From the NCBI GenBank assembly GCA_024231855.1, contig JAAEQD010000047.1, forward strand, positions 1 through 59,146: DNA of 59,146 nucleotides, written 5' to 3'. This document shows, piece after piece, positions 11,980 to 50,468 of the stretch (position 1 is the first letter of the stretch; each line of letters starts with the position of its first letter). Made by a program: the position numbers and the translations under genes. The notes under the pieces are model-generated. The model had not been told where the DNA came from, made no database searches, and saw nothing but the letters and a program-made list of their open reading frames with translations. The stretch comes from Candidatus Zixiibacteriota bacterium. Its GTDB lineage: Bacteria > Zixibacteria > MSB-5A5 > UBA10806 > 4484-95.

Positions 11980-12303
11980 ATGAAACAATTAGTCGAATTC
12001 CCTTTAGATGATGGCAGCTCAATTTTAGTCGAAGTTGATGAATCCGAAAGCGCCGGGATGGCGGCCCCGGTCGCGTTCGGTGAGAAAACCATCGAGAAAG
12101 CAAAGCAAAGTTTCGAAACGGCCCTTGATAAGGTCAAACCAACCGCCAATGCCGTGATTTCCAAATTGCGGGATTTGACCGAACAGCCGGATGAAATCAA
12201 TGTGGAATTTGGGATCAAATTGAGCGCGGAAACCGGCGCTATTATCGCGTCTGCCGGTATTGAGGCGAATTTTAAGGTGACACTAAAATGGCAGAAGAAT
12301 TAG
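11980..12303 (+). CDS. trypsin-co-occurring domain protein (Trypco1 / CU044_2847-like)
   Basis: 107 residues. The start VEFPLDDGSSILVEVDE and the later INVEFGIKLSAETGAIIASAG followed by a final beta strand (FKVTLKW) match the small Trypco1 domain, known to be encoded next to trypsin-like/STAND proteins in predicted NTP-dependent conflict systems. There is no signal peptide. It overlaps the next gene by 16 bases (ATG at 12288, stop at 12301-12303), implying translational coupling. GGAG at 11968-11971 serves as ribosome binding site. Its biochemical role is unknown; by context it is likely a partner or regulator of the protease-STAND protein. Confidence 0.8.
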   Translation: MKQLVEFPLDDGSSILVEVDESESAGMAAPVAFGEKTIEKAKQSFETALDKVKPTANAVISKLRDLTEQPDEINVEFGIKLSAETGAIIASAGIEANFKVTLKWQKN

Positions 12304-15300: not shown

Positions 15301-15332
15301 AAGACGCGAAAGAAGTTCTGGAAGCAATTTAA
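12288..15332 (+). CDS. trypsin-like protease fused to STAND/NB-ARC NTPase and TPR sensor
   Basis: 1014 residues, cytosolic. Residues 20-220 are a trypsin-like protease with apparent triad His52 (TCRHVFE), Asp98 (DDDAVVL) and Ser178 (GMSGAAVLD). Residues about 268-620 are an NB-ARC/STAND NTPase: Walker A GFGGEGKSS (297-305), Walker B YLFVLDG (to 384), sensor-like LITSR, a GxP-type GHALTLSLIGG, then a winged-helix-like part. From about 640 to the end are TPR-like helices, the likely ligand-sensing part. This is the layout of STAND conflict or antiviral ATPases: the sensor detects a signal, oligomerises, and activates the N-terminal protease. The target and trigger are unknown. It follows Trypco1 with a 16-base overlap. 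Confidence 0.85.
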   Translation: MAEELEKKPVDTRVKLQKLRDFTVQIRHAETDAIVGTGIAISMEGEIVTCRHVFEAAVVAPSDDFTKAEVGVYFPQAKGEKKDRRAKLDRYFSDSDDDAVVLQVIDGSPLAPEQIAILSDAERSEGNLFRSFGYRRLDNFISGRADGKIMGIVDSPQGATLLGEPIQLDSKHINRGMSGAAVLDEKRNLVIGVISDTYFADQTGKDRDTGWAVDANVLTFDPLKVPLYDGEFLELKESAKPSDEVMAQAKASIGQNLSLTEHPAPNPIDEWVGRVDLLEQLDQDWNDPNTKIIGLIGFGGEGKSSLAGKWIADLLNNPDQKQPDGLFWWSFYDRRSVDEFFEAALTYLSIKDEKLLASHKSPSARAHLISGMLYGGKYLFVLDGLEVMQKQEGDDFGEFQSDDLRTFLEYFSAPSHSSFCLITSRAPVFDLMDPTTFKHHDINRLSDNEGCDLLRKVGVTGAEPDLKKAVKEWDGHALTLSLIGGYLVKAHKGDIARIGDIEPPTADEPRFERVHRILRRYAEHLNDDERAFLQLFSAFRTPVEEEAFEKVFRTKISKKALNAPIAALSDKDFIALLDRLQTYRMLRYDKLEKHYTTHPLIRNHYFALLSKRDISQTQNAHNQIKDYYLSVAGDTPHHPTLDDLIPLIEVVHHACQAGAYDEAFIIFVERISLHNRFVIVHELGASETTLALMVEFFSDGDISQQPQVSDPKNKSWILNTVGFCLMNLGRLREVGPFYERMVKGYLAEEDWGGASGGYQNLSELYFFLGRLADSERAAVKALQLARRVEEKFNESQSMSHQALAAHLIGDSDVACKIFKEAETVEIKRQLDNTRYLYSNRGIFHSDHLRLMGKADYAQRITEANMVICKKAHWVEDISMCHRVLGDLASDAGDHPQAGQHYETSLKIARSITKQDVQIGVLLARGRWQAKRATQAPDQADLQQAFSDLNEALDYATKSGYRIYEADIRVALAWAHKASKQPEKARQEAKRALTMSEDMGYYWGKKDAKEVLEAI

Positions 15333-26016: not shown

Positions 26017-27930
26017 GTGCTGAAATTTCGTTCAATGACGAAACACTTCACGTGGGGAATTTTATTAATCGCCTTGTTTGTGTTCCAGACCGGATGCGGC
26101 GGACCTGAAGGCGAAGGCAGGGGCGGCAGAGGAGCCGGCAGATCGGATGTCACCGACGCGGCGCTGAAAACTTATGTCCCGCCCGGCGACCTGGATGAAT
26201 ACTATTTATTCTATTCAGGCGGTCACAGCGGGCAAGTATTCGTGTCGGGTGTGCCATCGATGCGCCATATCTGCACCATTCCCGTATTCACCCCGTATCC
26301 CGGAACCGGTTACGGTTTCGACAATGAGACAAAGGAGATGCTTGGCGGTTATTCCTGGGGCGATTCGCACCATCCAGGTTTCTCAGAAACAAACGGCGAA
26401 TATGACGGGCGCTGGCTATTTATCAACGATAACGCCCAGGGCAGAGTGGCCCGAATCGATCTGGCAGATTTCAAAACCAAGCAGATTCTCTCGATTCCCA
26501 ATATCTCGGCCAATCATGGTTCATCGTTCGCTACCGAAAATACCGAGTATATCACGATGGCAACCCGTATGTCGGTACCTTTTCCTGAAGGCACCTACGC
26601 CGATGTCACCGAATACGCCGATAAATACAAAGGCATTGTTGCCGGTATAGCCGTTGATCCCAAAGACGGTGAAATGTCTTTGGCTTGGGAAGTTGTGATG
26701 CCGCCATTCAACTATGATCTCGGTGATGCCGGTAAGGGTATCAGTCATGGCTGGATGTTCTGGACATGCTATAACAGCGAACGCGAATTTATCGAAGGCG
26801 CCAAACTTGAAGTGACAGCTTCACAGCGTGATAAGGACTACGTAGTCATGCTCAATTGGCAGGAAGCTGAGAAAGCGATAGCCGCCGGAAAATTCAAGAC
26901 ACACAATGGCGCTAAGGTCATCGATCCGGCCAAGGCCCCCGGCGTGGTCTATTTTGTCGGCCTGGCGAAAAGCCCTCATGGTGTTGATGTCAGCCCCAGC
27001 GGTCAGTGGATAATCGGTAGCGGTAAGCTTTCTCCGACAACAACCGTATACAATTTCGAGAAAATGCTGACTGCGATTAAAAACAAAGATTTTGAAGATG
27101 AGGTCGATGGTATTCCGGTTTTAACTTACGAATCCGTTCGTGAAGCTGAAATCCCGGTTGGTCTGGGTCCGTTACATACGCAGTTCGATGATCGCGGCAA
27201 CGCTTACACATCGCTATTTGTCGAAAGCGCTGTCGCCAAGTGGAAACTACCGCCATATGATCCAGGCGATGTCAACGATTCGAAGAAAATGGAAAAATAC
27301 GTATTGGAGAAAATTCCGGTTGCTTATAATATCGGCCACCTGGTATCGGCCGAGGGTGATTCCAAATCTCCCGACGGTAACTATCTGGTTGCCTTAAACA
27401 AGCTTTCGAAGGGCAGGCACTTATCGGTTGGTCCGTCAATTCCTGAGTCGGCTCAGCTTATAGATATTTCAGGCGATAAGATGAAACTGTTGTATGACGC
27501 GTTTACCGAACCTGAACCGCACTACGCGGTAATGATCAAGGCCGATAAGATCAATACCTTCGAGGTTTACAAACGGGGTGAGCATGTTAATAAAAACGCG
27601 GTCTGGACTCCGGAAGAAACCTCGATTACGCGTACAGGACGTAAAGTCGAAGTGAAAATGATTGCCGTTAGAAGTTTCTTCGCGCCCGATGTCATTCGGG
27701 TTAGAAAAGGTGATGAGGTTACGATTCATCTGACAAATATAGAACAGACTCGTGACGAGCTTCACGGCTTTGCAATAGATAATTACGACATTAACATTGT
27801 AGCCGATCCCGGTGAGACCAAGAGTGTAACATTCAAAGCCAATAAAGCCGGTGTATACGCGTTCTACTGCACCAATTTCTGTTCGGCTTTGCACCAGGAG
27901 ATGCAGGGATATCTTCTGGTAAAACCATAG
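26017..27930 (+). CDS. nosZ: nitrous oxide reductase, clade II lipoprotein type
   Basis: 637 residues; GTG start with a strong AAGGAGGA. A Sec signal ends in a lipobox (FQTGC, Cys27) followed by a Gly-rich linker, so this is an outer-facing lipoprotein rather than a Tat substrate, as in clade II (atypical) NosZ. CuZ His ligands are visible in DSHHPGFS (118-119), GPLHTQFD and EPEPHYAV. The C-terminal cupredoxin domain holds the CuA site CTNFCSALHQEM (Cys618, Cys622, His626, Met629). It reduces N2O to N2 in the periplasm, the last step of denitrification. The upstream bc module supplies electrons; nosDFLY downstream mature its copper sites. A strong terminator follows the gene. Confidence 0.97.
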   Translation: MLKFRSMTKHFTWGILLIALFVFQTGCGGPEGEGRGGRGAGRSDVTDAALKTYVPPGDLDEYYLFYSGGHSGQVFVSGVPSMRHICTIPVFTPYPGTGYGFDNETKEMLGGYSWGDSHHPGFSETNGEYDGRWLFINDNAQGRVARIDLADFKTKQILSIPNISANHGSSFATENTEYITMATRMSVPFPEGTYADVTEYADKYKGIVAGIAVDPKDGEMSLAWEVVMPPFNYDLGDAGKGISHGWMFWTCYNSEREFIEGAKLEVTASQRDKDYVVMLNWQEAEKAIAAGKFKTHNGAKVIDPAKAPGVVYFVGLAKSPHGVDVSPSGQWIIGSGKLSPTTTVYNFEKMLTAIKNKDFEDEVDGIPVLTYESVREAEIPVGLGPLHTQFDDRGNAYTSLFVESAVAKWKLPPYDPGDVNDSKKMEKYVLEKIPVAYNIGHLVSAEGDSKSPDGNYLVALNKLSKGRHLSVGPSIPESAQLIDISGDKMKLLYDAFTEPEPHYAVMIKADKINTFEVYKRGEHVNKNAVWTPEETSITRTGRKVEVKMIAVRSFFAPDVIRVRKGDEVTIHLTNIEQTRDELHGFAIDNYDINIVADPGETKSVTFKANKAGVYAFYCTNFCSALHQEMQGYLLVKP

Positions 27931-27945
27931 AGATGGATTGAATCC

Positions 27946-27977
27946 GAGGGGATAGAATCTCTATCCCCTCATTTTTT
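27946..27977 (+). terminator. strong terminator/attenuator directly after nosZ
   Basis: GAGGGGATAGA (27946-27956) pairs perfectly with TCTATCCCCTC (27960-27970), an 11-pair stem with loop ATC, followed by ATTTTTT. It lies inside the nos cluster between nosZ and the maturation genes. Confidence 0.9.
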
Positions 27978-27986
27978 GAGGAATCT

Positions 27987-28622
27987 ATGAAATCTTTATT
28001 TGCATGGATAAGTAAAGCTCTGGATGTTGATTTGAATGTCAAATCACGTCTGGTGTTAATTATGGCGGTATTGATTCTGCTCCCGACATTTATATTTCCC
28101 TTATGGTATATGACTTTCTGGTCATATCAATATCCGGACGGACTTCGACTTGATATCTATAGTTATAAACTTGGCGGAGGTGATGACGGCAATGATATCA
28201 CCGAAATTAATATTCTAAACCATTACATCGGTATGGCTGCGCTTGAGGAAGAAAATTTCCTGGAGTTAAAATGGATCCCGCTGGCACTCGGAATCTTTTT
28301 GATCTTGACTTTACGAGCGATCATCTTCGGAAAAGTTGGTAAGATTCTGGATGTATTGATGATGTTTACGTATTTCGGCGCTTTCAGCCTGTGGTCGTTC
28401 TGGTATAAACTTAATGCTTACGGCCATGACCTCGATCCCCACGCGTCCGTGGAAATCGATCCTTTTACTCCGCCTGTATTCGGATTCGAGCAAGTAGGGC
28501 AATTCAAGGTCTGGAGCTACCCTCATATCTCGTCATATATGCTCGGGGCATTCGCTATACTTCTTGTCCTGGCAATGTATTTATCTTTGAGGAAAAGAAC
28601 TAACCAATTAGAACTAAAGTGA
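27987..28622 (+). CDS. nosB: nos-cluster integral membrane protein (NosB-like by position)
   Basis: 211 residues with about four hydrophobic segments (25-45, 95-112, 120-137, 180-200). The periplasmic stretch contains NHYIGM and many charged residues. There is no heme motif. A membrane protein gene directly after nosZ is characteristic of clade II nos clusters, where it is called nosB and has no established function; the symbol here rests on position and topology. It follows the nosZ terminator by 10 bases, with GAGG as a modest ribosome binding site, so it depends on read-through or an unseen promoter. Confidence 0.65.
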   Translation: MKSLFAWISKALDVDLNVKSRLVLIMAVLILLPTFIFPLWYMTFWSYQYPDGLRLDIYSYKLGGGDDGNDITEINILNHYIGMAALEEENFLELKWIPLALGIFLILTLRAIIFGKVGKILDVLMMFTYFGAFSLWSFWYKLNAYGHDLDPHASVEIDPFTPPVFGFEQVGQFKVWSYPHISSYMLGAFAILLVLAMYLSLRKRTNQLELK

Positions 28623-28629
28623 GGAAATA

Positions 28630-29121
28630 ATGAAATCTTTTAAGAAACCATTGAATCTTATAGTCATACTGGCGATTTTCATGTCAGTATCGCTTCCGTC
28701 GGTGCTTTTGGCCGATGAATCGCCGGTCAAGTTCGAAGCGCCGGAAGTAATGGCGGTTCCCGAGAGAGTAGAGCCTAAATCGGACACCGACTGGCAAGCA
28801 AAAGTGAATAACAAAAACGCTGAAGTTATCGAGGTTCTGAATATCCTGAATCCCGTGGCCGCGTTTCTTACGGCGGCGTTCGAGCAATTCGGCGATGAGA
28901 TGGGCGAAGTTACCCATGAGGAATGGGTGGACACACAGGCGCATCTTACCAAAGCCCTGACTTTGTATGGCGAATCCCAGAAGTTGATGGAGAAGGAAAA
29001 GTTCTCGAAACAACTATTCCTTGACCTCGAAGAAACCTGGCAGTTGCTGGTAAAAGTCGGTGTTGCCGGTATCAGAACGAAGAGCATGGTTGATAACGAT
29101 CTGGCGAGGATGAGTAAATAG
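28630..29121 (+). CDS. exported helical protein of the nos cluster, unknown function
   Basis: 163 residues. A signal peptide (1-28, SVLLA-DES) is followed by an acidic linker and then an alpha-helical domain (NKNAEVIEVLNILNPVAAFL through ETWQLLVKVGVAG). There are no Cys, no CxxCH and no obvious metal site. It follows the membrane protein by 7 bases with GAGG at 28621-28624, and precedes nosD by 24 bases. I do not recognise the family; the position suggests a role with the nos membrane complex or copper-site assembly. Confidence 0.75.
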   Translation: MKSFKKPLNLIVILAIFMSVSLPSVLLADESPVKFEAPEVMAVPERVEPKSDTDWQAKVNNKNAEVIEVLNILNPVAAFLTAAFEQFGDEMGEVTHEEWVDTQAHLTKALTLYGESQKLMEKEKFSKQLFLDLEETWQLLVKVGVAGIRTKSMVDNDLARMSK

Positions 29122-29145
29122 GATAATCGGAATCATCCGCTTGCT

Positions 29146-30498
29146 ATGTTGAAATTTGTCGTAATATTCATAGTTGGTTTGTCGGCGTATCCCTTATGGG
29201 GTTCGACTTTAAATCTTGGTTCAACCGATGACTTACTCAACGGGCTTTCTCATTCTAATAGTGGCGATACACTGTATCTTCGCGGCGGCGTCTACACCGG
29301 GCTGTTTGAAATAAATGTTCCGATAACTCTGACCGGAGATTCTTCCGCTATAATCGACGGTGATCGAGGCGGAGATGTCGTTACAGTTACCGCGGATTCT
29401 GTCGTAATCCGCGGCATTACCATTCAAAGCTCGGGGACGCGGCTTCTCAAAGACCATGCCGGTATTAAGATAACCGGCAATTTCGTTGAAATCACCGATT
29501 GCCGGATACGGGATAACCTTCACGGAATATATGTTAAAGGTGGAAGCGATATCAGAATTCATAACAATACGATTCTCGGCAGATTTGATATCCAGGAGTC
29601 CGACCGCGGCAACGGGATTCATCTCTGGAGTACGGCCAATAATGTTATTTCCTGTAACGATATAAACTATGCCCGGGATGGGATCTACTTTTCCTTTGCC
29701 AATAACACTCAAATCCGGAGCAATCATATTCATCACCTGCGGTACGGCCTTCATTATATGTATTCCGACTCTAATGTTTTCGAGGATAACCTGTTTGATT
29801 ACAATGTCGCTGGCAGCGCCCTGATGTATTCCGAATTCATTGAGTTCAAGAGGAACATATTCGCTCATTGCCGGGGATTCAGGGCTTACGGAATATTATT
29901 GCAATCGGTAGATTACTGTTCGGCTTATGATAACCTGATCCTGGATAATACCAAGGCGATCTTTTTCGGAAATTCAAGTTTCAACAGATTTGAATCTAAC
30001 GACATAGTTCAGAACGATCAATCGATTCAAATCAATGTGGCTTGCGAGGAGAATGTACTTGTTAGTAATAATTTCATCTCGAACCTGTCAGAGGTTATGA
30101 TGGATGAGTCCATTGTAAGCGTAACGAACTGGTCTGAAAACGGCAGCGGCAATTTCTGGTCGGATTACTCGGGTTATGATCTGGATGGCGATGGTATCGG
30201 CGATACACCGCATCAATTGCAGAGTGTATTCGAATTCCTCGAGCAAAAAAGTCCGCCGGTTCGTTTCTACCTTTACAGCCCGGCCTCCCAATTGCTAACG
30301 GTGGCGGAAAAAAGACTGCCGATACTGCGGAAAACAATGGTGGAAGATTCGTTTCCGATATTTAGATTAATTCAAAACGCCAATATCCCCTGGGATAATC
30401 TTGAGGAGCATTCGATTAACTCCTCATATAGCCATCTGGCTTTATGGATAGCGGTATTACTGCTACCGTTGGGATTCAGTTGGGTGGCGCGCAGATGA
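29146..30498 (+). CDS. nosD: NosD copper-site maturation protein
   Basis: 450 residues. A signal peptide is followed by a right-handed parallel beta-helix of CASH/NosD repeats (for example IRDNLHGIYVKGGSDIRIHNNTI and NNTQIRSNHIHHLRYGLHYMYSDSN). A C-terminal hydrophobic anchor is visible (LALWIAVLLLPLGFSWVARR). NosD works in the periplasm with the NosFY ABC complex to supply sulfur/copper for the CuZ centre. Its TGA overlaps the nosF ATG (ATGA at 30495-30498), so the two are coupled. Confidence 0.93.
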   Translation: MLKFVVIFIVGLSAYPLWGSTLNLGSTDDLLNGLSHSNSGDTLYLRGGVYTGLFEINVPITLTGDSSAIIDGDRGGDVVTVTADSVVIRGITIQSSGTRLLKDHAGIKITGNFVEITDCRIRDNLHGIYVKGGSDIRIHNNTILGRFDIQESDRGNGIHLWSTANNVISCNDINYARDGIYFSFANNTQIRSNHIHHLRYGLHYMYSDSNVFEDNLFDYNVAGSALMYSEFIEFKRNIFAHCRGFRAYGILLQSVDYCSAYDNLILDNTKAIFFGNSSFNRFESNDIVQNDQSIQINVACEENVLVSNNFISNLSEVMMDESIVSVTNWSENGSGNFWSDYSGYDLDGDGIGDTPHQLQSVFEFLEQKSPPVRFYLYSPASQLLTVAEKRLPILRKTMVEDSFPIFRLIQNANIPWDNLEEHSINSSYSHLALWIAVLLLPLGFSWVARR

Positions 30499-31388
30499 TT
30501 AAACTCGAGGAATTCTCAAAAAAATACGGCTCGTTTCAGGCAGTATATCCTACCGGATTTGAAGTTGGAGATGGGCAAACTTATGCCTTATTGGGACCTA
30601 ATGGCAGCGGCAAAACGACGATTTTTAAAGCCATGGTGGGCTTATCCAGACCAACAACCGGAAAAGTACTTATTGATAATAGTGATCTCTGGCAGAAGCC
30701 TGAGAAAGTTAAGGCCAAGTTATCATTTTTACCCCAGAGAATCACGATTCCGGAAAACCTCAAAGTTTGGGAGGCGCTGGACTTTTTTACCAGGCTCAAA
30801 CAAGCCCCATCGGGCCGGTTGGAAGAAGTTCTCGCGTATATCGAATTGATGAGCGATATCAATCAGTATGTCGGTAAATTGTCGGGCGGGATGCTTCAGC
30901 GTCTGGGATTGGTGATTACATTTTTAGCCGATACTTCTGTTTATATTCTCGATGAACCAACTTTGAACCTCGACCTTCAGGGTATGAAAAGTTTCCGGAG
31001 ATATCTCAAATATCTAAAGGAACAGGGAAAAACGATCGTATTCTCATCCCACGCGCTTCTGGATGCCGAAAGCCTGTCGGATAGGGTCGGCGTATTAGTC
31101 GATGGCCGATTGGTCCTCGATTTGACCGTAACCGAATTCCGGGCAAAAGTCAAAAACCGCAGCAATATAATCTTAGTCTTGGCGGATAAAAATCCGGGCC
31201 TGGTCGAATTGGCCTATAGGCATGGCGCCCAGATGGCCGAATTCGAGAATGGATATTTTCGCTATCGGGCCGATCTGGTCAGCCAGATAAAAATTATCGA
31301 AGCGATCCGGCGCAATGGAGATGAAATAATAAACATCTCAACCGAAAAACCCGATCTGGATCAGATAATTAGGGAGGACGATGTTTAA
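30495..31388 (+). CDS. nosF: NosF ABC transporter ATPase
   Basis: 297 residues from ATG 30495, within the ATGA overlap with nosD; the longer frame from 30444 is rejected. Walker A is GPNGSGKTT, the signature LSGGMLQR, Walker B VYILDEPTLN, and the H-loop FSSHAL. It pairs with NosY to energise transfer of a sulfur-containing species for NosZ maturation. It overlaps nosL by 8 bases. Confidence 0.95.
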   Translation: MIKLEEFSKKYGSFQAVYPTGFEVGDGQTYALLGPNGSGKTTIFKAMVGLSRPTTGKVLIDNSDLWQKPEKVKAKLSFLPQRITIPENLKVWEALDFFTRLKQAPSGRLEEVLAYIELMSDINQYVGKLSGGMLQRLGLVITFLADTSVYILDEPTLNLDLQGMKSFRRYLKYLKEQGKTIVFSSHALLDAESLSDRVGVLVDGRLVLDLTVTEFRAKVKNRSNIILVLADKNPGLVELAYRHGAQMAEFENGYFRYRADLVSQIKIIEAIRRNGDEIINISTEKPDLDQIIREDDV

Positions 31389-32109
31389 AACGATTCTAAT
31401 AATAGCATTATGTCTGATTATGATATCATGCCAGATGAAGGTCGAACCGACTATCGATAGCGGGATCGATGAATGCAACCATTGCACTATGATAATTCAG
31501 GATGTTGATCAAGGCGCGGTTACTATTGACTCTGAGGATAATCTGGTCACTTTCTGTTCTCCGGTATGTTTACTTATCGGCAAAAACGGTCTCAAGGCTC
31601 AGAACAAGCCATTTCAGTTTGCCGAGTATCTTTTCGACCATCTGGATACCGGCCCGATTCCGGCTGATCGGGCATTTATCGTACATGGTGACTTTAATAC
31701 CGCCATGGGACATGGTTTGCTGGCGTTCAAAAGCAGGTCCGAAGCGGTAAAATTCGCGAAAGACGTTCAGGGGAAAATTCTGTCCTGGAATGATCTTCGT
31801 TATCAGCATGAAACGCCTGATGTATTCCTTGATATCGAAATTGGCGGTGAAACGGAGCCTGAAGCTTTCGAGGTAATGAGAAATCAGGTCGTATCGATAG
31901 CTTTCGATAATCCAACCGCTCAAGATATAAAAGTAAATTTAACCGGTTATGATTTTGAGATAGAAATCCCGGCCAATAACCGGAACACTTCAAATCTGAT
32001 TGCCGGGAAGCCCGGACAGGGATTCGTGTTCCAGGATGAGGCCGGACGGATAATCGCCTCTTTATTCGTCACCGGGGATCACACCGATGAGGAAGCGGTA
32101 TATCGTTAA
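31381..32109 (+). CDS. nosL: NosL copper chaperone lipoprotein with C-terminal extension
   Basis: 242 residues. The lipobox MISC (Cys17) is followed by the Cu(I)-binding motif CNHCTMII, and TFCSPVCLL lies in the NosL core. NosL delivers Cu(I) to apo-NosZ. The protein is longer than a typical NosL (about 180-200). Residues from about 160 form an extra beta-rich domain (DIKVNLTGYDFEIEIP, GQGFVFQDEAGRIIAS) that I cannot assign. The start overlaps the nosF stop. The gene order nosD-F-L-Y places nosL inside the ABC gene pair. Confidence 0.88.
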   Translation: MFKTILIIALCLIMISCQMKVEPTIDSGIDECNHCTMIIQDVDQGAVTIDSEDNLVTFCSPVCLLIGKNGLKAQNKPFQFAEYLFDHLDTGPIPADRAFIVHGDFNTAMGHGLLAFKSRSEAVKFAKDVQGKILSWNDLRYQHETPDVFLDIEIGGETEPEAFEVMRNQVVSIAFDNPTAQDIKVNLTGYDFEIEIPANNRNTSNLIAGKPGQGFVFQDEAGRIIASLFVTGDHTDEEAVYR

Positions 32110-32136
32110 TAATGGATCGCTTTAAAGAGAATAGTA

Positions 32137-32961
32137 ATGACTAAAATTATCGAAATAGCCAGGCAGGAATTGAAACTGAACCTTCGCAACAAGTGGATTT
32201 TGGGAGTATCCCTATTGTTTGGGATATTAACCCTGTCGATCGCGTATTCGGGCATGATCACTTCGGGATACATAGGTTTTCAGGATTTCCGCCGTACCGG
32301 CGCTTCTATAATCAGCCTGGTTTTGTACCTGGTACCTATCTTGGCTCTTATGATGGGGACTTATACATTTGTTTCTTATAAAGATTATACTAATTGGATC
32401 GTAACCCAGCCTATCGCGCGATGGAAAATAATTATCGGAAAATACCTGGGCGTTTTGGGGACATTAATCATCTCGACCGCTTCGGGATTCAGTATCGCCG
32501 GTATCATTATTTCCGTTCAGATCGGCGCCGAGGGATCATTGCGTTTTTTGCTGATCGTCTTGCTTTCATTTTTACTGGGAGCGGTGTTTCTCAGTCTGGC
32601 GTTTTTGCTGGCGATAATAGTCAAGCGTCGCCAGGCGGCCGTTGGATTTTCTGTCCTGGTCTGGTTCTTCTTTGTTATTTTTTACGATCTGTTGATGATG
32701 AGCAGTACGACTTACTTATCATCCAGCACCCTTAAATCCAGCCTCTTTATCGGTCTGTTGTTGAATCCGGTTGATATGATTCGCGTTACCAGTTTGATAA
32801 TCGTCGGCGGCGAATCGATTTTTGGGGCCGCGGGAGTAGTCGCGGTCAAGATGCTGGGTGATATGGGGGCATTAGTCGGATTATCATTAATTATTATAAC
32901 ATTCTGGGTGGCGATGCCGCTGACTCTGGCTATTAAGCTATTTGGAAAACAAGATATTTAG
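32137..32961 (+). CDS. nosY: NosY ABC transporter permease
   Basis: 274 residues with six membrane helices in the ABC-2/NosY pattern (N-terminal EIARQELKLNLRNKWI, then helices with TYTFVSYKDYTNWI between). It forms the membrane half of the NosFY transporter that cooperates with NosD. It is separated by 27 bases from nosL. It is the last canonical nos gene; the MerB-family frame begins about 75-115 bases later on the same strand with no terminator evident between. Confidence 0.92.
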   Translation: MTKIIEIARQELKLNLRNKWILGVSLLFGILTLSIAYSGMITSGYIGFQDFRRTGASIISLVLYLVPILALMMGTYTFVSYKDYTNWIVTQPIARWKIIIGKYLGVLGTLIISTASGFSIAGIIISVQIGAEGSLRFLLIVLLSFLLGAVFLSLAFLLAIIVKRRQAAVGFSVLVWFFFVIFYDLLMMSSTTYLSSSTLKSSLFIGLLLNPVDMIRVTSLIIVGGESIFGAAGVVAVKMLGDMGALVGLSLIIITFWVAMPLTLAIKLFGKQDI

Positions 32962-33076
32962 TCAATAATCGTAATAATTAGTAGTCCGAAAGCCCTCTGG
33001 TCATTTTTCTCAGGGTACCTAATTAAAAGGGGTCTTTATTACTGAAAAAATACTGATCGGTCAAGAACGCCGGATC

Positions 33077-33784
33077 GTGGAATTACCGCGACACGAATGG
33101 GAACAGAGTCTGTCTCATGCTCCGTCGGCCGTCGCGGCTCTATTGAGTTTTATGTCCGATGACCATAGTCTCGTTCGTAACTTCGTGGTCCGGGAAATTC
33201 CAAACGCGGGACAACCTCTTTCACCCAAATTTATTGCTCAAGAGTTGAAATTGTCATTGGAACGAGTAAATGAAATACTCGATGATCTTGAAAAGAATCT
33301 TGTGTTCCTGTTCAGGAACAATTCCGGTGACGTTAGCTGGGCGTATCCCGTAACCTGCGAGACTACTCCTCATCATTTCACATTCGAGTCCGGCGAACAA
33401 ACCTATGCCGCCTGAGCGGTCGATACGATTGCCACGCCTTTCGTGCAAGGGCGCTTGAGAAATACCCGGTTGTCGGCTCAAGTCAATACCCAATGCGCTC
33501 ATACCGGTCGATCAATTGTCATGGAAATCGATAGTGATTTGAATATAAGTATATTGGAGGGCGGGATCGCCCCGTTAGTTTTTGTGCCACCCCTGGATTT
33601 ACCGAATTGGCCTGATCCAAGTATCATCGATAACTTCTGACGTAAGTCGGTATTCTTCTGGTCAGAAGAACAAGCAAGAGAGTTCTGGGCTAAGTCCGAC
33701 CTTGTTGAAGGCAGGTTTTACACATTGGAGCAAGCTGTTTACTCAACACGCGTTTTCCAAAGCGCGTTGTTCGCGTTCAAGTAG
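33077..33784 (+). CDS. MerB-family (alkylmercury lyase-like) protein, predicted double-selenocysteine protein
   Basis: One reading frame interrupted only by TGA at 33413-33415 and 33638-33640, ending at TAG (33782-33784): 235 residues from GTG 33077 if both TGA are read through. The pieces match MerB throughout: an N-terminal winged helix (LSLERVNEILDDLEKN), then YAA-U-AVDTIATPF against the MerB motif around catalytic Cys96/Asp99, NTQCAHTG against the Cys117 region, and IIDNF-U-RKSVFFWS against the catalytic Cys159 region. Both TGA sit at catalytic Cys positions, and Asp116 is kept at +3. Each TGA is followed by a SECIS-like hairpin. Upstream, AAAAGGGG (33025-33032) and ATT at 33038 could give a start 13 codons earlier. 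Alternative: pseudogene. Organomercurial cleavage itself is not shown. Confidence 0.8.
33439..33462 (+). promoter_or_regulatory. SECIS-like hairpin for the first UGA
   Basis: Lower stem TTTC/GAAA (33439-33442 with 33459-33462), asymmetric internal loop GTG/A providing an unpaired U, upper stem CAAG/CTTG, apical loop GGCG (33450-33453). The loop begins 34 bases after the UGA. The GG at the loop start and the bulged U resemble the bacterial fdhF SECIS. Folded by eye. Confidence 0.5.
33653..33670 (+). promoter_or_regulatory. SECIS-like hairpin for the second UGA
   Basis: TTCTTCT (33653-33659) pairs perfectly with AGAAGAA (33664-33670) around loop GGTC (33660-33663). The loop starts 19 bases after the UGA, almost the spacing of E. 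coli fdhF (18), whose loop is also GGUC. Confidence 0.7.
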
Positions 33785-41792: not shown

Positions 41793-44700
41793 CTACCTGG
41801 ACCAATCAAAACCATCAAGTTGAAATGGCGGGCTCCACTCAATTGGCTCCTCCCAATGAAAAAGCTGATACATATTACCGCCAAACAAACTTCCTCGATC
41901 GTAATAAGACATATAATGTTCAGGATTAAACAGCTGACCTACACCTTTAAGGCCAAAAAATTCTCCTGCTTTTTCTCCTCCAAATTGACAAGACCTTAAA
42001 AGCGACACCATACTGGTTCGATTGTATATCAATACTTCATAGCTTTTGTTATCCCAACTTGGAATAATAGAAGAATAATATGAGCCTAAGAAAAATTCCG
42101 TGGGAGTTCTAGTTGAATTGACGTACTTTTCCGGAGTGTCTATATTGTAAAACCTTGTTAGTCCGGTTAGCGGCTCACCGGTAAGAAGTGCAACAGTATT
42201 AATTTCATAAAACTTTGATCGCATTGCGTCAAGTCCTTGTATATCCCTAACATCCGATGTCATATCTGAGTTTGGGCCGAAAGTATATACTTCCGGTCCT
42301 AATTCAAAAAGCCATGCCGGGGCAAGGCCGAACATCATTCTTTTGAAGGTTGATGGGTAATTATTTGCAGATCCAGCATTCGAAATTTGATTATCCATTA
42401 GAGAGGACATTGCTCCAGAAGGTATATTAAAATTAGGTTGATCCATCTGAAAGTTAGAAATGCCGCTAATATCTTCAAAATATGTTTTTAAAATCCAATT
42501 GTAATCTATTGCAGAACTACCATCTTCATCCTTCATACGCATTAGATTTCCGCCAACATAGCTATAAGGAGAAGGAAACTGCCTGGCAGGGTCAACCTGC
42601 TTCCATTGGCAGGAGAGAGGATCATAGTACCTTGCCCCGAAGTAGTAAAGATTAAAACCGTCTATTTTATCTACCCCTTCATCATCCAACTCCTTACCGG
42701 TAAACTTGTAAGCTACATCGGGAATGGAATGATCTATATAATTGGGACTGGCGTCACCTGAGGGCAGGTAATGCAGATCGGCAACCGGATCGCCGTTATT
42801 ATCTATAACCATCCGCGTGGTGCCAAGATGATCGGTGAGATAATAATTGGGCCCTTCGCCGTTATTAAACGAGGCTATCCGCCCATTCGGGCCATAAACA
42901 TAGCAGACATTATCAACCGACTCGCCGCCTTTGTAAAACTCGGTAGCTTCTTTCCCCGCATCATGGATATAAAAAGTTGATGTAGTATCCGGTTCAAGCC
43001 AGAAGCAGCAACTTAATCCGTGTCCATCCTTGAAATAATTGACCAATTTAGTAATATCACCCCCAATTATTAAGCCATCACAATTCAAATCCATTCTCAT
43101 TGCTGTATCAGGTAATGAGTACATTCCCCTAAAGTAAAGGACAAATCTGGTAAGATCACTGCCAATGAGAGAACCATCACCGTCCATATCACCCGGTAAA
43201 AATGGGCAACACTCCAAGCTTGCGCAATCATCATCATGGGTGCACAGATCATAAGGCCCCGACTCAACAAGACTTAAATGATCAACATCGCATTCAAGAT
43301 CACTAGAAGCTTTTTTCACTCTCTTGCCCGCCGGTTCATATGTAAAATCGAGGTAAGAGAGCTCATTTTCAAAGATGCCGTCCCAATGGGAGCTACTCAT
43401 TAAATTGCGCCAGTTATAGGAATACACCGAGTTGCCCCGATAGTTATCCTGAGTGCAGTTGCCCAGAGCGTCATAATCGTAATTGCCAGGTGATTGGTCC
43501 GGATTAATATAGTCAAGCTTATTCGAATAGGGCGAATTGGAGTAGTTGTAAGTCATTGTGGTATAGTTTTCATCATCGGTGAAATGTCTTACCTGTGTCT
43601 CAATATTGGAATTTTCATCGTAATCGAATTGAATGCCATCTTTGAGGGTATTGAAATACCAGTTGTCCATACTACCCTTGAACGCGAATTTTGCTTCAGT
43701 CAAACGATTAATTTCATCGTAGTAGAATGTATTTCCAAAATATTCTTCACCTCCAGAGGTATAGTAATGGTAGACAGCCCAACTCGGAGTGCCATTGAAC
43801 TTAAGCGGGAAGCTTCCCGAAGGATTATCCTGCAAAGCGATTTCCTCTCTGAGATGATATCCTAATCTCATACAGAATTTATCGTTAGCGTCCGGCGTTA
43901 ATTTACCATCAACGTAATCGGTCCCATTAATCTCGGCCAGCCAGCCAGGCGCGTTATAATAGTAATCAATCTTCTGTAAACCATCACCTAATACACATTT
44001 TTTTACCGCGCCATCAATAAAGTATTCATATTCCGCCAATCTCTCATCGGCTTGACCTTCCAGGTATCTATCAATAGTCGCCAACCTGGCTCTTTCATCA
44101 TAGTTATACTTCAAGACCAACAGAGGTGTTTCACCCGCGACATCCTCGGGGTATTCCTGTTGTATTTTTTGATAGGACATATCATAGTCCGAATATACCT
44201 CTTTACAAACCTCATCCAGACCCTCGATGAAGGTAGCCTCACAAAGAAGTTCGCCGCTATTGCCATATGTAAAGCATTTCTTCGCGTCGGTTTCAGAGTT
44301 GTCGTCGCCATTATCCGATACTAATAAGCTGCCTCTTACACGAAGAGTATCAAGTCGGAATCCGGCAATCGTTGGAGTTTCGAGTTTTCTTGGATCCTCA
44401 TAAAGTGAAACACCGTATGAGTCATATTGATAACGTAATACTTCTCCGATTTCCAGCCAGGATAGATAAACAGTTTCAGGTAGAGGTGGGTTGTCCTGTG
44501 GGGTAATCTCGCCTTGCATGCTAACCCTACCAAACACATCGTAAACGGTTTCAGTCCACCTATCCGGGCTTTGCTCGCTATTTTGGCTGAAACGCAACTG
44601 ACCTTTAGCATCATATATAAATGTGTTCTGACCATAATCGCTACTGGCATCGGTCAGAATCCTTCCGAACGAATCAAAAGTTTTAACGATTTCAAGGTCA

Positions 44701-47700
44701 CCGTAGTTAGGATCGCTCTGATCTTCAAGCTTACTGGCTAAAGGGGGCGTGACGCTGGTGACATCTCCTACTATATTGGCATCATATCTTGTGGTTAGGT
44801 TCAAACCTCCCGGGATCGAATCGACTGTGGTTTCAATTGTTTGACCAAATATGTTTGTATACTCGACCGCTATCAAACCATCCGGATCGATCGTGACATT
44901 TCTATGCAAATCATTGGTCCCATAGCCATTTATCGGGGCTGTATTGGTACCATAACTAAAAGCGGAAGATTTTTCAGTAAAATCGGCGCCGGGTACATAG
45001 ACAAAATCGACCCTACCCTTAGGATCATTCATATAATGATACCTTGTATAAGCTACTCCACCGCAATCAGGAATATAATCATCATCATCGTCGTAGTATT
45101 CATTTACACTGTCAACATATTCCGGATTATAACGATGACCCAGCTGCACGGCTTCATACGGCTTGTACTCCTTGTGGACTCTGAAAAATTCATCATATGA
45201 AATAGCGCTCACGAAATCCGGGGCCTCAATAATGTTATAAGTACTCACGTTTTGCATATTCTTGCCCTGACCATCATTGTAAGAGATTTCGACCAGACTA
45301 GGTACATACTCTGAACTTCTTATAAACTCGACTTGATCGAAGTAATATGCGTCTAGATAATACTTGTTTAAAGAAACAATTTTAATACTAACTTCCGCGG
45401 TAACAGCATCGGGAGGAGATGTAAATGTATGCTGACACTCAGTACAAAGAGCAGGATCGTCAGCCAGCGTGATTATTTCTTCATTTGCGCCGCATTGAGC
45501 GCCTATTTGATTGAACCAATCTACGCATAAAATTACTTGAGAAGTAGTAATACCATTGGGATCCCAGGCATTTACGCTAAGCGTATAATCTGTATCGCCA
45601 TATATAATCCCGGTTCTTGTCTTTTGAGAAATACTATATAGCCCATCAGCATATTTAGATGGAGGATCAATGATCAATACCTTTGCTCCCATAGCCGGAT
45701 TATCACATAGTCTGCAATTATCCAGGTCATGGTATAATTCAGTACGAAAATACTCATCTCTTGGAATCACTTTCCAGCCAAATTTGCCATATTCAAAGCC
45801 GCTATTAATTAACAGATTTCTGTTCGGATAAGTCGTGGATAAAGCAAAATTAGGATAATCTTCAAAATCCTCGAAATTTTCTATCGATTCAGATTCAAAC
45901 ATATAGAACATATCATTGGAATTAACATTTTGGCGATATTTATCTGTCAATGTCATCGGCTGGTTATAAAGATCATAGACAAACCTGGTCGAGAAGCCAT
46001 TATCATCAGTCTCAGCTATCATTTTGCCCTTATCATAATTGATCTTTTTAGTTGCTGCCCTGCTATCGACAGGATAGAATGCTATGTTATCAATTAAGTA
46101 TAACGTGTTATCTTCATCGCAGATTATAGTTATGCATAGCTCATCATCCTGGGAGCCGAATTCCCAGGTGCCCTCCAGGAATTCCACATGCCATCGACCG
46201 TCTTCGTCTGCAGATGATGAATGCCAATTAATGGGCTGATCAATCTCATAAATGCCGACAACAGCGTTGATCCCTCCACTTTTAATTCTATAGTCAAATC
46301 TCAATATGTAATCACCTTCAAAGGGCATTGGTTCGGCATCGGGATGGCAAACTCTAATAGAATCACCGGCATTACCGCTAATGAGAATACCATCTTCGCG
46401 AGGATCTTCATAGCCATATTCATCTTCCCAGGAGTTTCCGTCAGGCATTTTACCTGGATTCTCATCCCAAATAACCGTTATACCATCTGATGTATATATG
46501 TCGCCATGAAGCATATCGCCATCACCGGCGCAATAATTCACTAATGGCGGATACATCACAAATAAAGGATCAGCATTCACGAAAGCGGCGGTGTTGAAAA
46601 TACCCCCATCATCATAATGATGTATTGTCTGTACGCCTAAAGCATCTACTTCGTTTATCACATTGCCCAAATGATCATATTCGATAATTTCATTTTGCAG
46701 AGCCCATTCATTATCCAACCAGCCATATTGCTCGGAGGGATAAAAACATCGAACAGGAGTTAAATACTCAGCCCACTCAACTTTGGTACTACGTAGGGTA
46801 ACGCTGCTTGGAGTTGCGATATTCTCATCATTTACATCAGTCTGATAATGCTGTACAAGCATGTTTCGAGCTTCCATAGAATCATATACCACGCCGTCAG
46901 CTTCAAAAGCAAAAGTAATTTCCGTCGTTTTTAACTTACTATAACTCGGTTGGTAGAACTGTTTCGTTTTACTAACCTGGCCATTGATACTATTGTATTC
47001 AAATCTCGTCCAGATATCTAATTTATCGGCCCATGAATATGTAGAATTTAAGTAGGTTTGAGTGATAGTCGGATAATCGGTTGAATCAATATGTGCCGGG
47101 ACACTGCAACTGTAAAAGTTAATCGTTGAATCAATAATATCATCGCCGGCATCTATAATGTAAGTCTTATACGGAACACCGTTTAAAAGAAGGCCATAAC
47201 CCAAATCTTCATCGGTAAGATCCGGGAATTCCGGATTATCGGTAAACACTGTCGATGATAACCCGCAATAATAATACCTCTCTATAGAGCCGTTATCGCC
47301 GGGTAAGTCTACCACGCTCTTGTGATATTTCGCCCGCTGAGTGCTGGCATCGGTTGTACCATCATAGTAATGATAATTCCAGGTCGTACCGGTTATATCG
47401 TCATCATCAATTGAATATACGGTCTTTGAAACGCAGGGATAATCGAAGACATTACTATAAAAATCCTCGTTGGCGAAATCAAACTTGTAATTTCTTCTTA
47501 ATGAATCATAGGCGGTTGCTTCTACAAGATCATCATCTACAAACTCTCTAAAACTTGTACAGTAATATTTTTCGTTGGAATAGTTGTAGGCGTAAATATC
47601 CGTGGTGGGGGCTCCAATATAAAAATTAGAATAGTATATATCAGGATTTTCATCGTCATCGTACTCAGCCCAAGGATCATCGGCTTCATATCCCTTAATC

Positions 47701-50468
47701 GGTCGACCATATCCCCATCGGCTTCTATGTCGCTCACTTGTTGAACCAGCACAAGAATAATAAGCGTATTGATTATAGCTCCCATTAAATTCGAACCATA
47801 AATTATCATCCTCGCCCGGATACGGATAATTGCATTTGTATATGTATTTGTAATTCCAATCGGAATCTTCATTGCCAATATTTTTTTCATAGCCAGCAAA
47901 CATATTATATCTGAGGCTTCCATCTTCTTCCGGGATTCCATAGACAAAATAATCGCCGAAAGACCACATAAGAATAACATCAAGATGACTGAGGCCATTA
48001 CTGATAGTCAAATCGATTTCTGTGGAGCTCCATTCGGAACCTGTCCACTCTTGTATAATAAGATCATCGCTGTGACTATCTACTATGGCAACATAATCTG
48101 GCCCGGATGTCACATTGAGGTTATAGCCGTCATCAACTTCATTGATTGCGGTTATTCTTTTATAACAAGGATTTTGATTGCGATATATATTAACTATTTT
48201 GCAAAATGTTCCGTCCACATGGTTTGAATTCCATGGCCTGTTTGTTACAGCATAGGCAAAAAAGTCTTTCTGAGCTGTAAGCCAAATCTCGCCCCAGCCA
48301 GCATGAAATTGCGTATAACCGCCTTCTCTCATAAAATCTGCAATCCAGCCAACTTGAGATATATTCCAGTGATTGGCAACAGGATCCCATAGATATAAGT
48401 TTATGAATTGAGTCCAATTACTCCTCCAATCACCTAAAGGATAAGGGTCGTGCTCACCCGCATCATTATCATGGACCCCCTTAGCTATAACAAAGTAATC
48501 ATCAGAGCCAATCCACCTAAATTTCATATCCTGGTTTTTACTTCCTGAATCCAATACCTGCACTACTCCACCCGAACCGGGAACACCATTCCATTTCCAT
48601 GCAATAATAAATCTTGACTGTTGTTCATAATCTAAATCAGCTACCAGACCATCATAATAACCTTGCATAACAAAATAATCTTTTCCCGCTAATATGGTAA
48701 AAAACGGTTCACCGTCTATTGGTAAATCAATACATTGATCGAAGCCATGATTTGATTCTTTTATCCATGTTCCATTATGTTTTATTAAAAAATGTGAATT
48801 ATGGGGACCGGCTCTATAAAGAGTAGTGGGAGAAAATACATGAACAAAATAGCAATCTCGGCCAGCACGCAATTTCGTCTTTATTCTAGTTTGAGAATCT
48901 GAAGTTGGGCATTTAAATTTGTTAATATTCTTCAATTCACCTTTTCTTAGTTCATATAAATATATCGTATCATTCTCCATATCAGTAGAACCAAATACGA
49001 ATGAATTTCCGGCACTAGCCCATGAGGAAGCATCAACATCATCAAAGACAGCTTTACGCCAAAAACCATCCCAGTAATAAACAAGCAGCTGATTGATATT
49101 ACTACCCTCTTTCAATATAAAATGCTCAGAAGATCTGGTTCTTAAAATCGGATCATCCTCATCGCTTAAATTAGTCACATTTGTATCGATCTTGGCATAT
49201 TCGAGCGTTTCCTGTTCGTATCCATACTCCACTTTAGAGCCGCCCGGATACCTGATTGATTTGAGAGCGCCAAAATAGGGCGTCGCGCCACCCGGATTTA
49301 AATAATAATCGAATTTCATACTGGGAATTGTGCTGTCATTATAAGCATAATAAGAGATTTCGGTCAAATAGCGCTTTAAATCATAAGGATAATCATCATC
49401 AACATTCGAAAAAGTATAGCTAAAATCATACTTGCCCAACCAATCACCATCACAGCCAAACATCACAACGCTATCGAGATAAACAGAATCATGTCGAGCA
49501 AAATTCGAATGAGGCATTTTGTTATAGTATTCTCCCGGTTGGCGGGAGTCCGTATAAAAAACAACTGTTCTGCCTATCGCATCGATTATAGTATCTGGGT
49601 GAGAGCATCTCGTAAAATACCTATCTTCGGTATCATAATATCCTGACTTGGTTTGTTGCTCGTAGCATATGGTAATATTATTTAGACGATTTACACTTTT
49701 AACGGTTTTTAAATCCCATTGATAGGCAACATGTCGAACCTCTGAAATACTCGGATGATATACGCCACCCTTTATTGTTAAAATACTATTTCCTAAACCC
49801 AGAGATACTCTTGTAGCATCAAAATTGAGTCCTTCAGTTGATGGAATATTCGGATCGATATAATCTCCAAATAACAACACCGAGCCATCTTCTCTGGTTA
49901 TTTCCCAGCCGATTACATATTGAACATTATCCTCTATTTGACCGAATACGCGCTTAATTTTCCAGGCACGGAAATTTTCCAGCATATATTCTTCATGTTC
50001 AGGATCTGTCACGACCGGAATTAACGCTATCATTCCCTTACCGGGAGAATTATAAAAATAATTATCATCAATAAAATCAACCGTACCATTTAAATCAGCG
50101 ATTATCGATGGCATTTCCAGGCTCCAACCGACGCCTGCCCAGGATGATTGAACCTTATCATTGTTTTGATATACCATATCTTCTATTTCGCTGCTATATT
50201 CTATCCCGAGTTCTAAGTCAAAACCATTCGGACCAGGGAAAGATACTAAATTCAAGCCGTGCTCAACATTGCCGGTGAATGTATTCACATCATCGGATGA
50301 AACTCCATCCGATTGAAAAGGATTGGGAGCCTCTTCACCGCCAATATTCAAACCTTGATAGCCAGCCGATGAAAAATCAGCTTCCAAACATAAGCCATCA
50401 TAATGAACAAACAAAACCAATAATATTAATATTGGCGCACAAAATTTGAGAAATTGCGACTTGGACAT
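41793..50468 (-). CDS. giant RHS/YD-repeat surface protein with dockerin-like insert and variable tip
   Basis: 2891 residues, ATG with AGGAGGAGA. Signal peptide at 1-27; N-terminal SpvB/RHS-type region (NTFTGNVEHGLNLVSFPGPN; SWAGVGWSLEMPSII). A long middle of YD-repeat shell is interrupted by carbohydrate-binding-like beta sandwiches (about 1380-1480 and 1555-1720, NLLINSGFEYGKFGW). About 2410-2490 is a dockerin-like EF pair (DMDGDGSLIGSDLTRF; DLNCDGLIIGGDITKL). Then comes the RHS core (YYLTDHLGTTRMV ... FTGKELDDEG ... FGARYYDPLSCQWKQVDPA). The final ~265 residues form a unique tip with no motif I know. RHS proteins encapsulate C-terminal toxins or act as adhesins. A good promoter lies upstream. 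Confidence 0.88.
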   Translation of the reverse strand: MSKSQFLKFCAPILILLVLFVHYDGLCLEADFSSAGYQGLNIGGEEAPNPFQSDGVSSDDVNTFTGNVEHGLNLVSFPGPNGFDLELGIEYSSEIEDMVYQNNDKVQSSWAGVGWSLEMPSIIADLNGTVDFIDDNYFYNSPGKGMIALIPVVTDPEHEEYMLENFRAWKIKRVFGQIEDNVQYVIGWEITREDGSVLLFGDYIDPNIPSTEGLNFDATRVSLGLGNSILTIKGGVYHPSISEVRHVAYQWDLKTVKSVNRLNNITICYEQQTKSGYYDTEDRYFTRCSHPDTIIDAIGRTVVFYTDSRQPGEYYNKMPHSNFARHDSVYLDSVVMFGCDGDWLGKYDFSYTFSNVDDDYPYDLKRYLTEISYYAYNDSTIPSMKFDYYLNPGGATPYFGALKSIRYPGGSKVEYGYEQETLEYAKIDTNVTNLSDEDDPILRTRSSEHFILKEGSNINQLLVYYWDGFWRKAVFDDVDASSWASAGNSFVFGSTDMENDTIYLYELRKGELKNINKFKCPTSDSQTRIKTKLRAGRDCYFVHVFSPTTLYRAGPHNSHFLIKHNGTWIKESNHGFDQCIDLPIDGEPFFTILAGKDYFVMQGYYDGLVADLDYEQQSRFIIAWKWNGVPGSGGVVQVLDSGSKNQDMKFRWIGSDDYFVIAKGVHDNDAGEHDPYPLGDWRSNWTQFINLYLWDPVANHWNISQVGWIADFMREGGYTQFHAGWGEIWLTAQKDFFAYAVTNRPWNSNHVDGTFCKIVNIYRNQNPCYKRITAINEVDDGYNLNVTSGPDYVAIVDSHSDDLIIQEWTGSEWSSTEIDLTISNGLSHLDVILMWSFGDYFVYGIPEEDGSLRYNMFAGYEKNIGNEDSDWNYKYIYKCNYPYPGEDDNLWFEFNGSYNQYAYYSCAGSTSERHRSRWGYGRPIKGYEADDPWAEYDDDENPDIYYSNFYIGAPTTDIYAYNYSNEKYYCTSFREFVDDDLVEATAYDSLRRNYKFDFANEDFYSNVFDYPCVSKTVYSIDDDDITGTTWNYHYYDGTTDASTQRAKYHKSVVDLPGDNGSIERYYYCGLSSTVFTDNPEFPDLTDEDLGYGLLLNGVPYKTYIIDAGDDIIDSTINFYSCSVPAHIDSTDYPTITQTYLNSTYSWADKLDIWTRFEYNSINGQVSKTKQFYQPSYSKLKTTEITFAFEADGVVYDSMEARNMLVQHYQTDVNDENIATPSSVTLRSTKVEWAEYLTPVRCFYPSEQYGWLDNEWALQNEIIEYDHLGNVINEVDALGVQTIHHYDDGGIFNTAAFVNADPLFVMYPPLVNYCAGDGDMLHGDIYTSDGITVIWDENPGKMPDGNSWEDEYGYEDPREDGILISGNAGDSIRVCHPDAEPMPFEGDYILRFDYRIKSGGINAVVGIYEIDQPINWHSSSADEDGRWHVEFLEGTWEFGSQDDELCITIICDEDNTLYLIDNIAFYPVDSRAATKKINYDKGKMIAETDDNGFSTRFVYDLYNQPMTLTDKYRQNVNSNDMFYMFESESIENFEDFEDYPNFALSTTYPNRNLLINSGFEYGKFGWKVIPRDEYFRTELYHDLDNCRLCDNPAMGAKVLIIDPPSKYADGLYSISQKTRTGIIYGDTDYTLSVNAWDPNGITTSQVILCVDWFNQIGAQCGANEEIITLADDPALCTECQHTFTSPPDAVTAEVSIKIVSLNKYYLDAYYFDQVEFIRSSEYVPSLVEISYNDGQGKNMQNVSTYNIIEAPDFVSAISYDEFFRVHKEYKPYEAVQLGHRYNPEYVDSVNEYYDDDDDYIPDCGGVAYTRYHYMNDPKGRVDFVYVPGADFTEKSSAFSYGTNTAPINGYGTNDLHRNVTIDPDGLIAVEYTNIFGQTIETTVDSIPGGLNLTTRYDANIVGDVTSVTPPLASKLEDQSDPNYGDLEIVKTFDSFGRILTDASSDYGQNTFIYDAKGQLRFSQNSEQSPDRWTETVYDVFGRVSMQGEITPQDNPPLPETVYLSWLEIGEVLRYQYDSYGVSLYEDPRKLETPTIAGFRLDTLRVRGSLLVSDNGDDNSETDAKKCFTYGNSGELLCEATFIEGLDEVCKEVYSDYDMSYQKIQQEYPEDVAGETPLLVLKYNYDERARLATIDRYLEGQADERLAEYEYFIDGAVKKCVLGDGLQKIDYYYNAPGWLAEINGTDYVDGKLTPDANDKFCMRLGYHLREEIALQDNPSGSFPLKFNGTPSWAVYHYYTSGGEEYFGNTFYYDEINRLTEAKFAFKGSMDNWYFNTLKDGIQFDYDENSNIETQVRHFTDDENYTTMTYNYSNSPYSNKLDYINPDQSPGNYDYDALGNCTQDNYRGNSVYSYNWRNLMSSSHWDGIFENELSYLDFTYEPAGKRVKKASSDLECDVDHLSLVESGPYDLCTHDDDCASLECCPFLPGDMDGDGSLIGSDLTRFVLYFRGMYSLPDTAMRMDLNCDGLIIGGDITKLVNYFKDGHGLSCCFWLEPDTTSTFYIHDAGKEATEFYKGGESVDNVCYVYGPNGRIASFNNGEGPNYYLTDHLGTTRMVIDNNGDPVADLHYLPSGDASPNYIDHSIPDVAYKFTGKELDDEGVDKIDGFNLYYFGARYYDPLSCQWKQVDPARQFPSPYSYVGGNLMRMKDEDGSSAIDYNWILKTYFEDISGISNFQMDQPNFNIPSGAMSSLMDNQISNAGSANNYPSTFKRMMFGLAPAWLFELGPEVYTFGPNSDMTSDVRDIQGLDAMRSKFYEINTVALLTGEPLTGLTRFYNIDTPEKYVNSTRTPTEFFLGSYYSSIIPSWDNKSYEVLIYNRTSMVSLLRSCQFGGEKAGEFFGLKGVGQLFNPEHYMSYYDRGSLFGGNMYQLFHWEEPIEWSPPFQLDGFDWSR

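Follow-up and report, generated by a model that had tools for sequence, protein, structure and literature searches.

A gene on the forward strand of a 59,146 nt contig from a Candidatus Zixiibacteriota bacterium (JAAEQD010000047.1, the whole of which is referred to here as the window), predicted to extend from 33038 to 33784, is likely to encode an enzyme of the MerB superfamily with selenocysteine (Sec) at both of the positions equivalent to Cys96 and Cys159 of MerB. Each of these residues would be specified by an in-frame UGA codon with its own downstream hairpin, and the predicted activity is the cleavage of organomercurials such as methylmercury. An earlier note, made from the letters of this DNA alone, had described the gene as a double selenoprotein, a description now supported by the Sec machinery of the host genome, by the Cys residues of distant homologues, by hairpins resembling selenocysteine insertion sequences (SECIS) that exhibit compensatory changes, and by a variant locus, L085, in which one of the two UGA codons is replaced.

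The frame from 33077 to 33781 is interrupted solely by the TGA codons at 33413-33415 and 33638-33640, and is closed by a TAG stop codon at 33782-33784. Read through from the GTG codon at 33077, the first standard start of the MerB-like gene, the product comprises 235 residues, with the two TGA codons, termed sites 1 and 2, at residues 113 and 188. This translation scores 50.8 bits against the Pfam MerB domain (PF03243; cut-off 27), hence attaining the gathering score of the superfamily. When aligned to solved MerB using a hidden Markov model (HMM) of the family, the first TGA corresponds to Cys96, Asp116 (33422-33424) to the catalytic Asp99, Cys140 to Cys117 and the second TGA to Cys159, the same correspondence that had previously been proposed from the motifs alone; in-frame UGA codons therefore stand where homologues have Cys. 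The equivalent of Asp99 is Asp in all 83 aligned rows that cover the site, including the window. A confident structure model predicts a MerB fold, the closest being that of mercury-bound MerB2 (PDB 5c17), which has Cys residues at both of the two positions in the HMM alignment and is 16% identical. Compared with MerB itself (PDB 3f0o, 3f2f and 1s6l; NF009710 and NF033555), to which it is approximately 21% identical over the superposed part, the new protein differs in lacking the thiols at positions 96 and 159, where both codons are UGA and selenols are predicted instead.

Relatives were sought in the DNA of named records from other genomes, and the best 80 of 123 (L015-L094) were compared. TGA was present at both sites in 79 of these, while L085 has TGC followed by TGA; TGG was never found at either site in the DNA of the 80 loci. 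The window and the relative L011 also have TGA at both sites, and the relative L012 has it at site 2, as do all 80 loci. A relative from the same class, G056, is 82% identical and likewise has two TGA codons. The exact recurrence of the pair in G056 and in all but one of the 80 loci is far beyond chance, bearing out the earlier argument that random decay was unlikely. Separate assemblies titled from many phyla share the identical two codons: record titles assign 71 of the 80 loci to eleven named phyla, principally Chloroflexota, delta/Desulfobacterota-type groups and Acidobacteriota, and leave nine unplaced, although phyla assigned by title are soft, as binning and title errors are possible and 'Deltaproteobacteria' titles were put in Myxococcota. 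The tree of loci has no clean phylum pattern, with transfer between phyla and mis-binning not told apart.

As the peptide patterns used to find these loci overlie the hairpins, the count was repeated without patterns across 400 genomes of the phylum of G137. Four strong matches (> 360 bits) were detected, each with two TGA codons and three of them already among the 80 loci, leaving one new holder; a fifth match, at 63 bits, had no TGA, and these 400 genomes yielded no close Cys/Cys form. Within the window's own phylum, five of 132 genomes matched: those of the window, G056, L012, L013 and L014. L013 is a distant Cys/Cys form. L012 (1504-1689, in G105) is a decayed 3' remnant of a double-UGA gene, containing more stops and adjoining unrelated sequence, and indicates that one lineage has lost the gene. 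The expectation that Cys-containing homologues would have Cys at both positions thus holds for the distant MerB relatives, but inside the family Cys was found only at a single site, in L085 and in P0021, a database protein that ends at site 2 and has Cys at site 1. Although 63 stretches of viral contigs matched a pattern, none was a relative, leaving a viral origin unsupported.

A stem-loop lies directly 3' of each UGA. Hairpin 1 (33436-33452) has a six pair stem (33436-33441/33447-33452) around the loop CGUGC, 20 nt behind the TGA, and in the window includes one U-G wobble; hairpin 2 (33653-33670) has a seven pair stem (33653-33659/33664-33670) around the loop GGUC, 12 nt behind the TGA. RNAalifold recovered both unprompted, from 81 sequences at site 1 and 82 at site 2. 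Across these alignments, 98.4% of cells were paired in hairpin 1 and 574 of 574 in hairpin 2, with both-sided changes at two pairs of each stem (for instance, UUCCUC with GAGGAA in L083 and UCCUU with AAGGA in L094). Silent positions are nearly frozen under the stems, the normalised codon entropy ranging from 0 to 0.42 at codons 121-125 and 193-198, compared with 0.87 on average for 97 other positions. In L085, the TGC codon at site 1 is accompanied by a broken hairpin 1 (four of six pairs), while TGA and an intact hairpin are found at site 2; as judged from its sequence, this locus is a natural control for the link between hairpin and UGA. The Cys relatives L013, L111 and L117 form two, three and none of the six pairs at site 1. 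An Rfam match to SAM-SAH (E 1.1), below the gathering score, was taken as chance.

The host genome has the means to insert Sec. In answer to the check recommended by the earlier note, selD, selA and selB were found adjoining one another on one contig (C243:34297-38494) and a tRNA-Sec with anticodon UCA on another. Two of the outcomes that the note had named as refuting, a genome lacking the Sec machinery and homologues lacking Cys at these positions, are not what was observed. The selD gene has an in-frame TGA of its own in a UxxK context, the motif given for Sec-containing SelD in Table 1 of PMC13188914. Among 79 other holder genomes searched, selA exceeded the cut-off in 72 and was present at some level in 75; within the window's phylum such co-occurrence carries no information, as selA passes the cut-off in 116 of 132 genomes. 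One of the selA matches over the cut-off, G099:C64:9741-11075, has a single in-frame TGA, either an error or something odd. TGA was also correctly described at the outset as an ordinary stop in this DNA, since it terminates six of the 33 larger open reading frames (ORFs) of the window, and 34 of 82 family genes.

Two in-frame stops might be taken to signify a pseudogene or a sequencing error, and the decayed remnant L012 demonstrates that the gene can be lost. However, the same two codons recur in separate assemblies, and third codon positions account for most of the differences between the window and L011, both in the stretch separating the UGA codons (30 of 49) and in that beyond the second (16 of 22). 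Codon conservation and this third-position bias led to the rejection of decay and error, which we regard as extremely improbable. We consider it just as improbable that a local change of code causes UGA to be read as tryptophan or another amino acid. This would accord with the results of a protein search, in which 34 homologues were found and all 23 that span both sites, public metagenome proteins (P0002-P0020, P0022 and P0025-P0027), have Trp at both. Yet TGG is found at neither site in the DNA, MerB has Cys at both places, TGA terminates genes of both the family and the window, the sequences of six other homologues break off precisely at site 1 and those of three more at site 2, and such a change would leave the hairpins behind each UGA without reason. 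Reading of UGA as Trp was therefore rejected through the absence of TGG combined with the use of TGA stops in the same genes. The Trp/Trp proteins and the exact ends instead suggest that some databases have translated UGA as Trp and others have stopped there, the Trp-bearing contigs apparently having been translated with table 4, whereas table 11 callers would stop at the same UGA.

A more substantial alternative, though still an unlikely one, is that the protein is a true double selenoprotein with another role, such as binding or moving soft metals, for example in copper handling for nitrous oxide reduction, or cleaving other organometallic or organometalloid compounds, for example organoarsenic or organotin. 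The gene begins (counting from GTG 33077) 115 nt behind a nitrous oxide reductase (nos) cluster on the same strand, its product scores below the cut-offs of both MerB and SaoL, a MerB-like organometallic lyase, and no mer genes stood out beside the related loci. Against such a role, Asp99 and positions 96 and 159 are kept, mercury-bound MerB2 is the closest fold, and MerR-family regulators, a family that includes mercury sensors, account for seven of 45 same-strand upstream neighbours. In the approximately 8 kb on each side of the G056 copy (16 kb in all), no match was found to nine window genes including nosZ, nosD and the NosL-domain gene; with no conserved operon either, a copper role linked to nos is unsupported.

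A number of observations weigh against the interpretation of the gene as a double-Sec organomercurial lyase. Considered as single sequences, neither of the window's hairpins clearly outperforms shuffled sequences in folding (z of -0.97 and -1.23), Rfam returned no SECIS match, and the shuffle controls for pair counts ignore the relatedness of the sequences. Low codon entropy is also evident outside the hairpins, at Ser182 (0.27), Ser153 (0.34) and Ser104 (0.39). L013, L111 and L117, despite being Cys relatives, retain six, four and five of the seven pairs at site 2, so part of stem 2 is due to the protein motif alone. The peptide patterns by which the 80 loci were found favour forms keeping the residues that overlie both hairpins, selA fell below the cut-off in seven of the 79 holder genomes, and the window's bin is 8.5% contaminated, although that of G056 (1%) carries the same gene. 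With regard to function, the protein scores 56.1 and 52.1 bits against the curated MerB models NF009710 and NF033555, whose cut-offs are 193 and 200, so its substrate might not be organomercurial. The neighbours scanned consisted of the 45 upstream genes on the same strand within 320 nt and 30 of the 33 such downstream genes, L029, L065 and L078 being left out for length; across these there was no conserved operon or neighbour, and no mer genes stood out beside the related loci, nor was a mer operon like that of MerB visible alongside the window's gene, although mercuric reductase was not searched for.

Since Asp99 and the two chalcogen positions are kept, organomercurial protonolysis with selenolates replacing thiolates is nevertheless the simplest functional reading. 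SelB and Sec-tRNA would read each UGA by virtue of the hairpin behind it. Sec96 and Sec159 would then form the nucleophile pair gripping the mercury of R-Hg+, with Asp99 protonating the leaving carbon and Hg(II) held between the two selenolates until handed to cellular thiols. The substitution is expected to be advantageous in that a selenolate is deprotonated at neutral pH and holds mercury more tightly than a thiolate does.

The window's own genome harbours a full-length hgcA (442 bits; G000:C381:14794-15783), and the organism may therefore be a mercury methylator. When the window's genome, G056 and the holders of 39 of the 80 loci were examined, hgcA was over the cut-off in 16 of the 41, both of the former included. 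Among holders with delta-, desulfo-, syntroph- or proteobacterial titles, a soft guide to phylum, hgcA reached the cut-off in 10 of 17 (Fisher p 0.011), or in 10 of 18 (p 0.018) once L038 is counted. The background, taken from the phylum of G168, was 113 of 395 genomes, some of them holders themselves, and two of the 17 carry no more specific title than 'Proteobacteria'. Methylators may thus protect themselves, yet this excess is only a hint because the background is already so high, and a shared habitat could explain it.

Table 1 of PMC13188914, comprising 119 families, lists one selenoprotein resembling MerB, SaoL (NF040728), which shares the MerB superfamily and selenoprotein status of the window's protein but has a single Sec, in a CU motif, whereas the UGA codons reported here are two in number and follow Ala and Phe; a MerB-like entry with an identical accession is present in PMC9312934. 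The same table includes bacterial and archaeal proteins, such as MduS, MbdU and FrhD/VhuD, which likewise have two Sec residues per polypeptide, none being listed there as having a MerB domain, and text searches of PMC2398784, PMC12013277 and PMC5029168 returned no MerB. The earlier note was not aware of a described MerB selenoprotein with two Sec, and none was found in the literature searched. The only NCBIfam models (release 20.0) matched by the family are the two for MerB, with a best E of 1.5e-17 among 79 read-through proteins, and SaoL, against which the window's protein scores 47.6 bits (cut-off 140). As no two-Sec MerB was found and these matches are weak, the predicted double-Sec proteins are considered a new branch of the MerB superfamily, outside both MerB proper and SaoL. 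A further MerB-like gene of the window's phylum, L014 (G064:C75:3334-3768), has UGA at the Cys159 position and, 12 nt behind it, the hairpin UUCUUC CGGUCG GAAGAA (seven of seven pairs), identical to that of the window's family, but is only approximately 25% identical overall and has Cys at position 96 without a hairpin (three of six pairs); it may be an intermediate, or Sec may have arisen a second time among MerB-like proteins.

While the earlier note was correct that the frame is open but for two TGA codons, its choice of GTG 33077 as the start is less likely than ATT 33038, which is preceded by the possible ribosome-binding site AAAAGGGG (33025-33032). Translation probably begins at this ATT, because the 13 residues that are added, ITEKILIGQERRI, restore an N-terminus similar to those of the homologues P0024 and L011. 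The upstream nos cluster (26017-32961) follows cytochrome b and c genes and consists, in order, of a Sec-pathway type nosZ (TIGR04246, 865 bits), two ORFs, nosD, an ABC ATPase, a NosL-domain protein and an ABC-2 permease. Elsewhere in the window, 12288-15332 encodes a protein of 1014 residues that combines trypsin-like, NB-ARC and TPR domains, a composition resembling that of defence or signalling NTPases, and a single ORF of 2891 residues occupies 41793-50468 on the minus strand.

Standard gene callers stop at UGA, and nine of the 34 database homologues end exactly at one of the two sites. The merB screen of at least one survey of methylmercury degraders was built on conserved Cys96 and Cys159 (PMC9948709). 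A double-UGA family would escape both, leaving potential demethylators among Anaerolineae, sulfate reducers, syntrophs, Acidobacteriota and others uncounted; likewise, table 4 translation artefacts could hide further selenoproteins. A tentative extension, to which we accord somewhat less than even likelihood, is that anaerobes of many phyla, mercury methylators included, carry a two-selenolate methylmercury lyase that provides anoxic sediments with a major, as yet unrecognised means of breaking down methylmercury, hidden so far because the gene resembles three fragments to gene callers and fails Cys96/Cys159 surveys. The two pairs of UGA and hairpin in a short frame, together with the half-variant L085, also provide a compact system for the study of repeated Sec insertion. 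To our knowledge, the genes of anaerobic methylmercury breakdown are largely unsettled, and if the enzyme is active, part of this process would become testable with one gene. It would also be a mercury enzyme in which both metal-gripping residues are selenocysteine, and hence a direct biological use of the affinity between mercury and selenium that is otherwise known from mercury toxicity.
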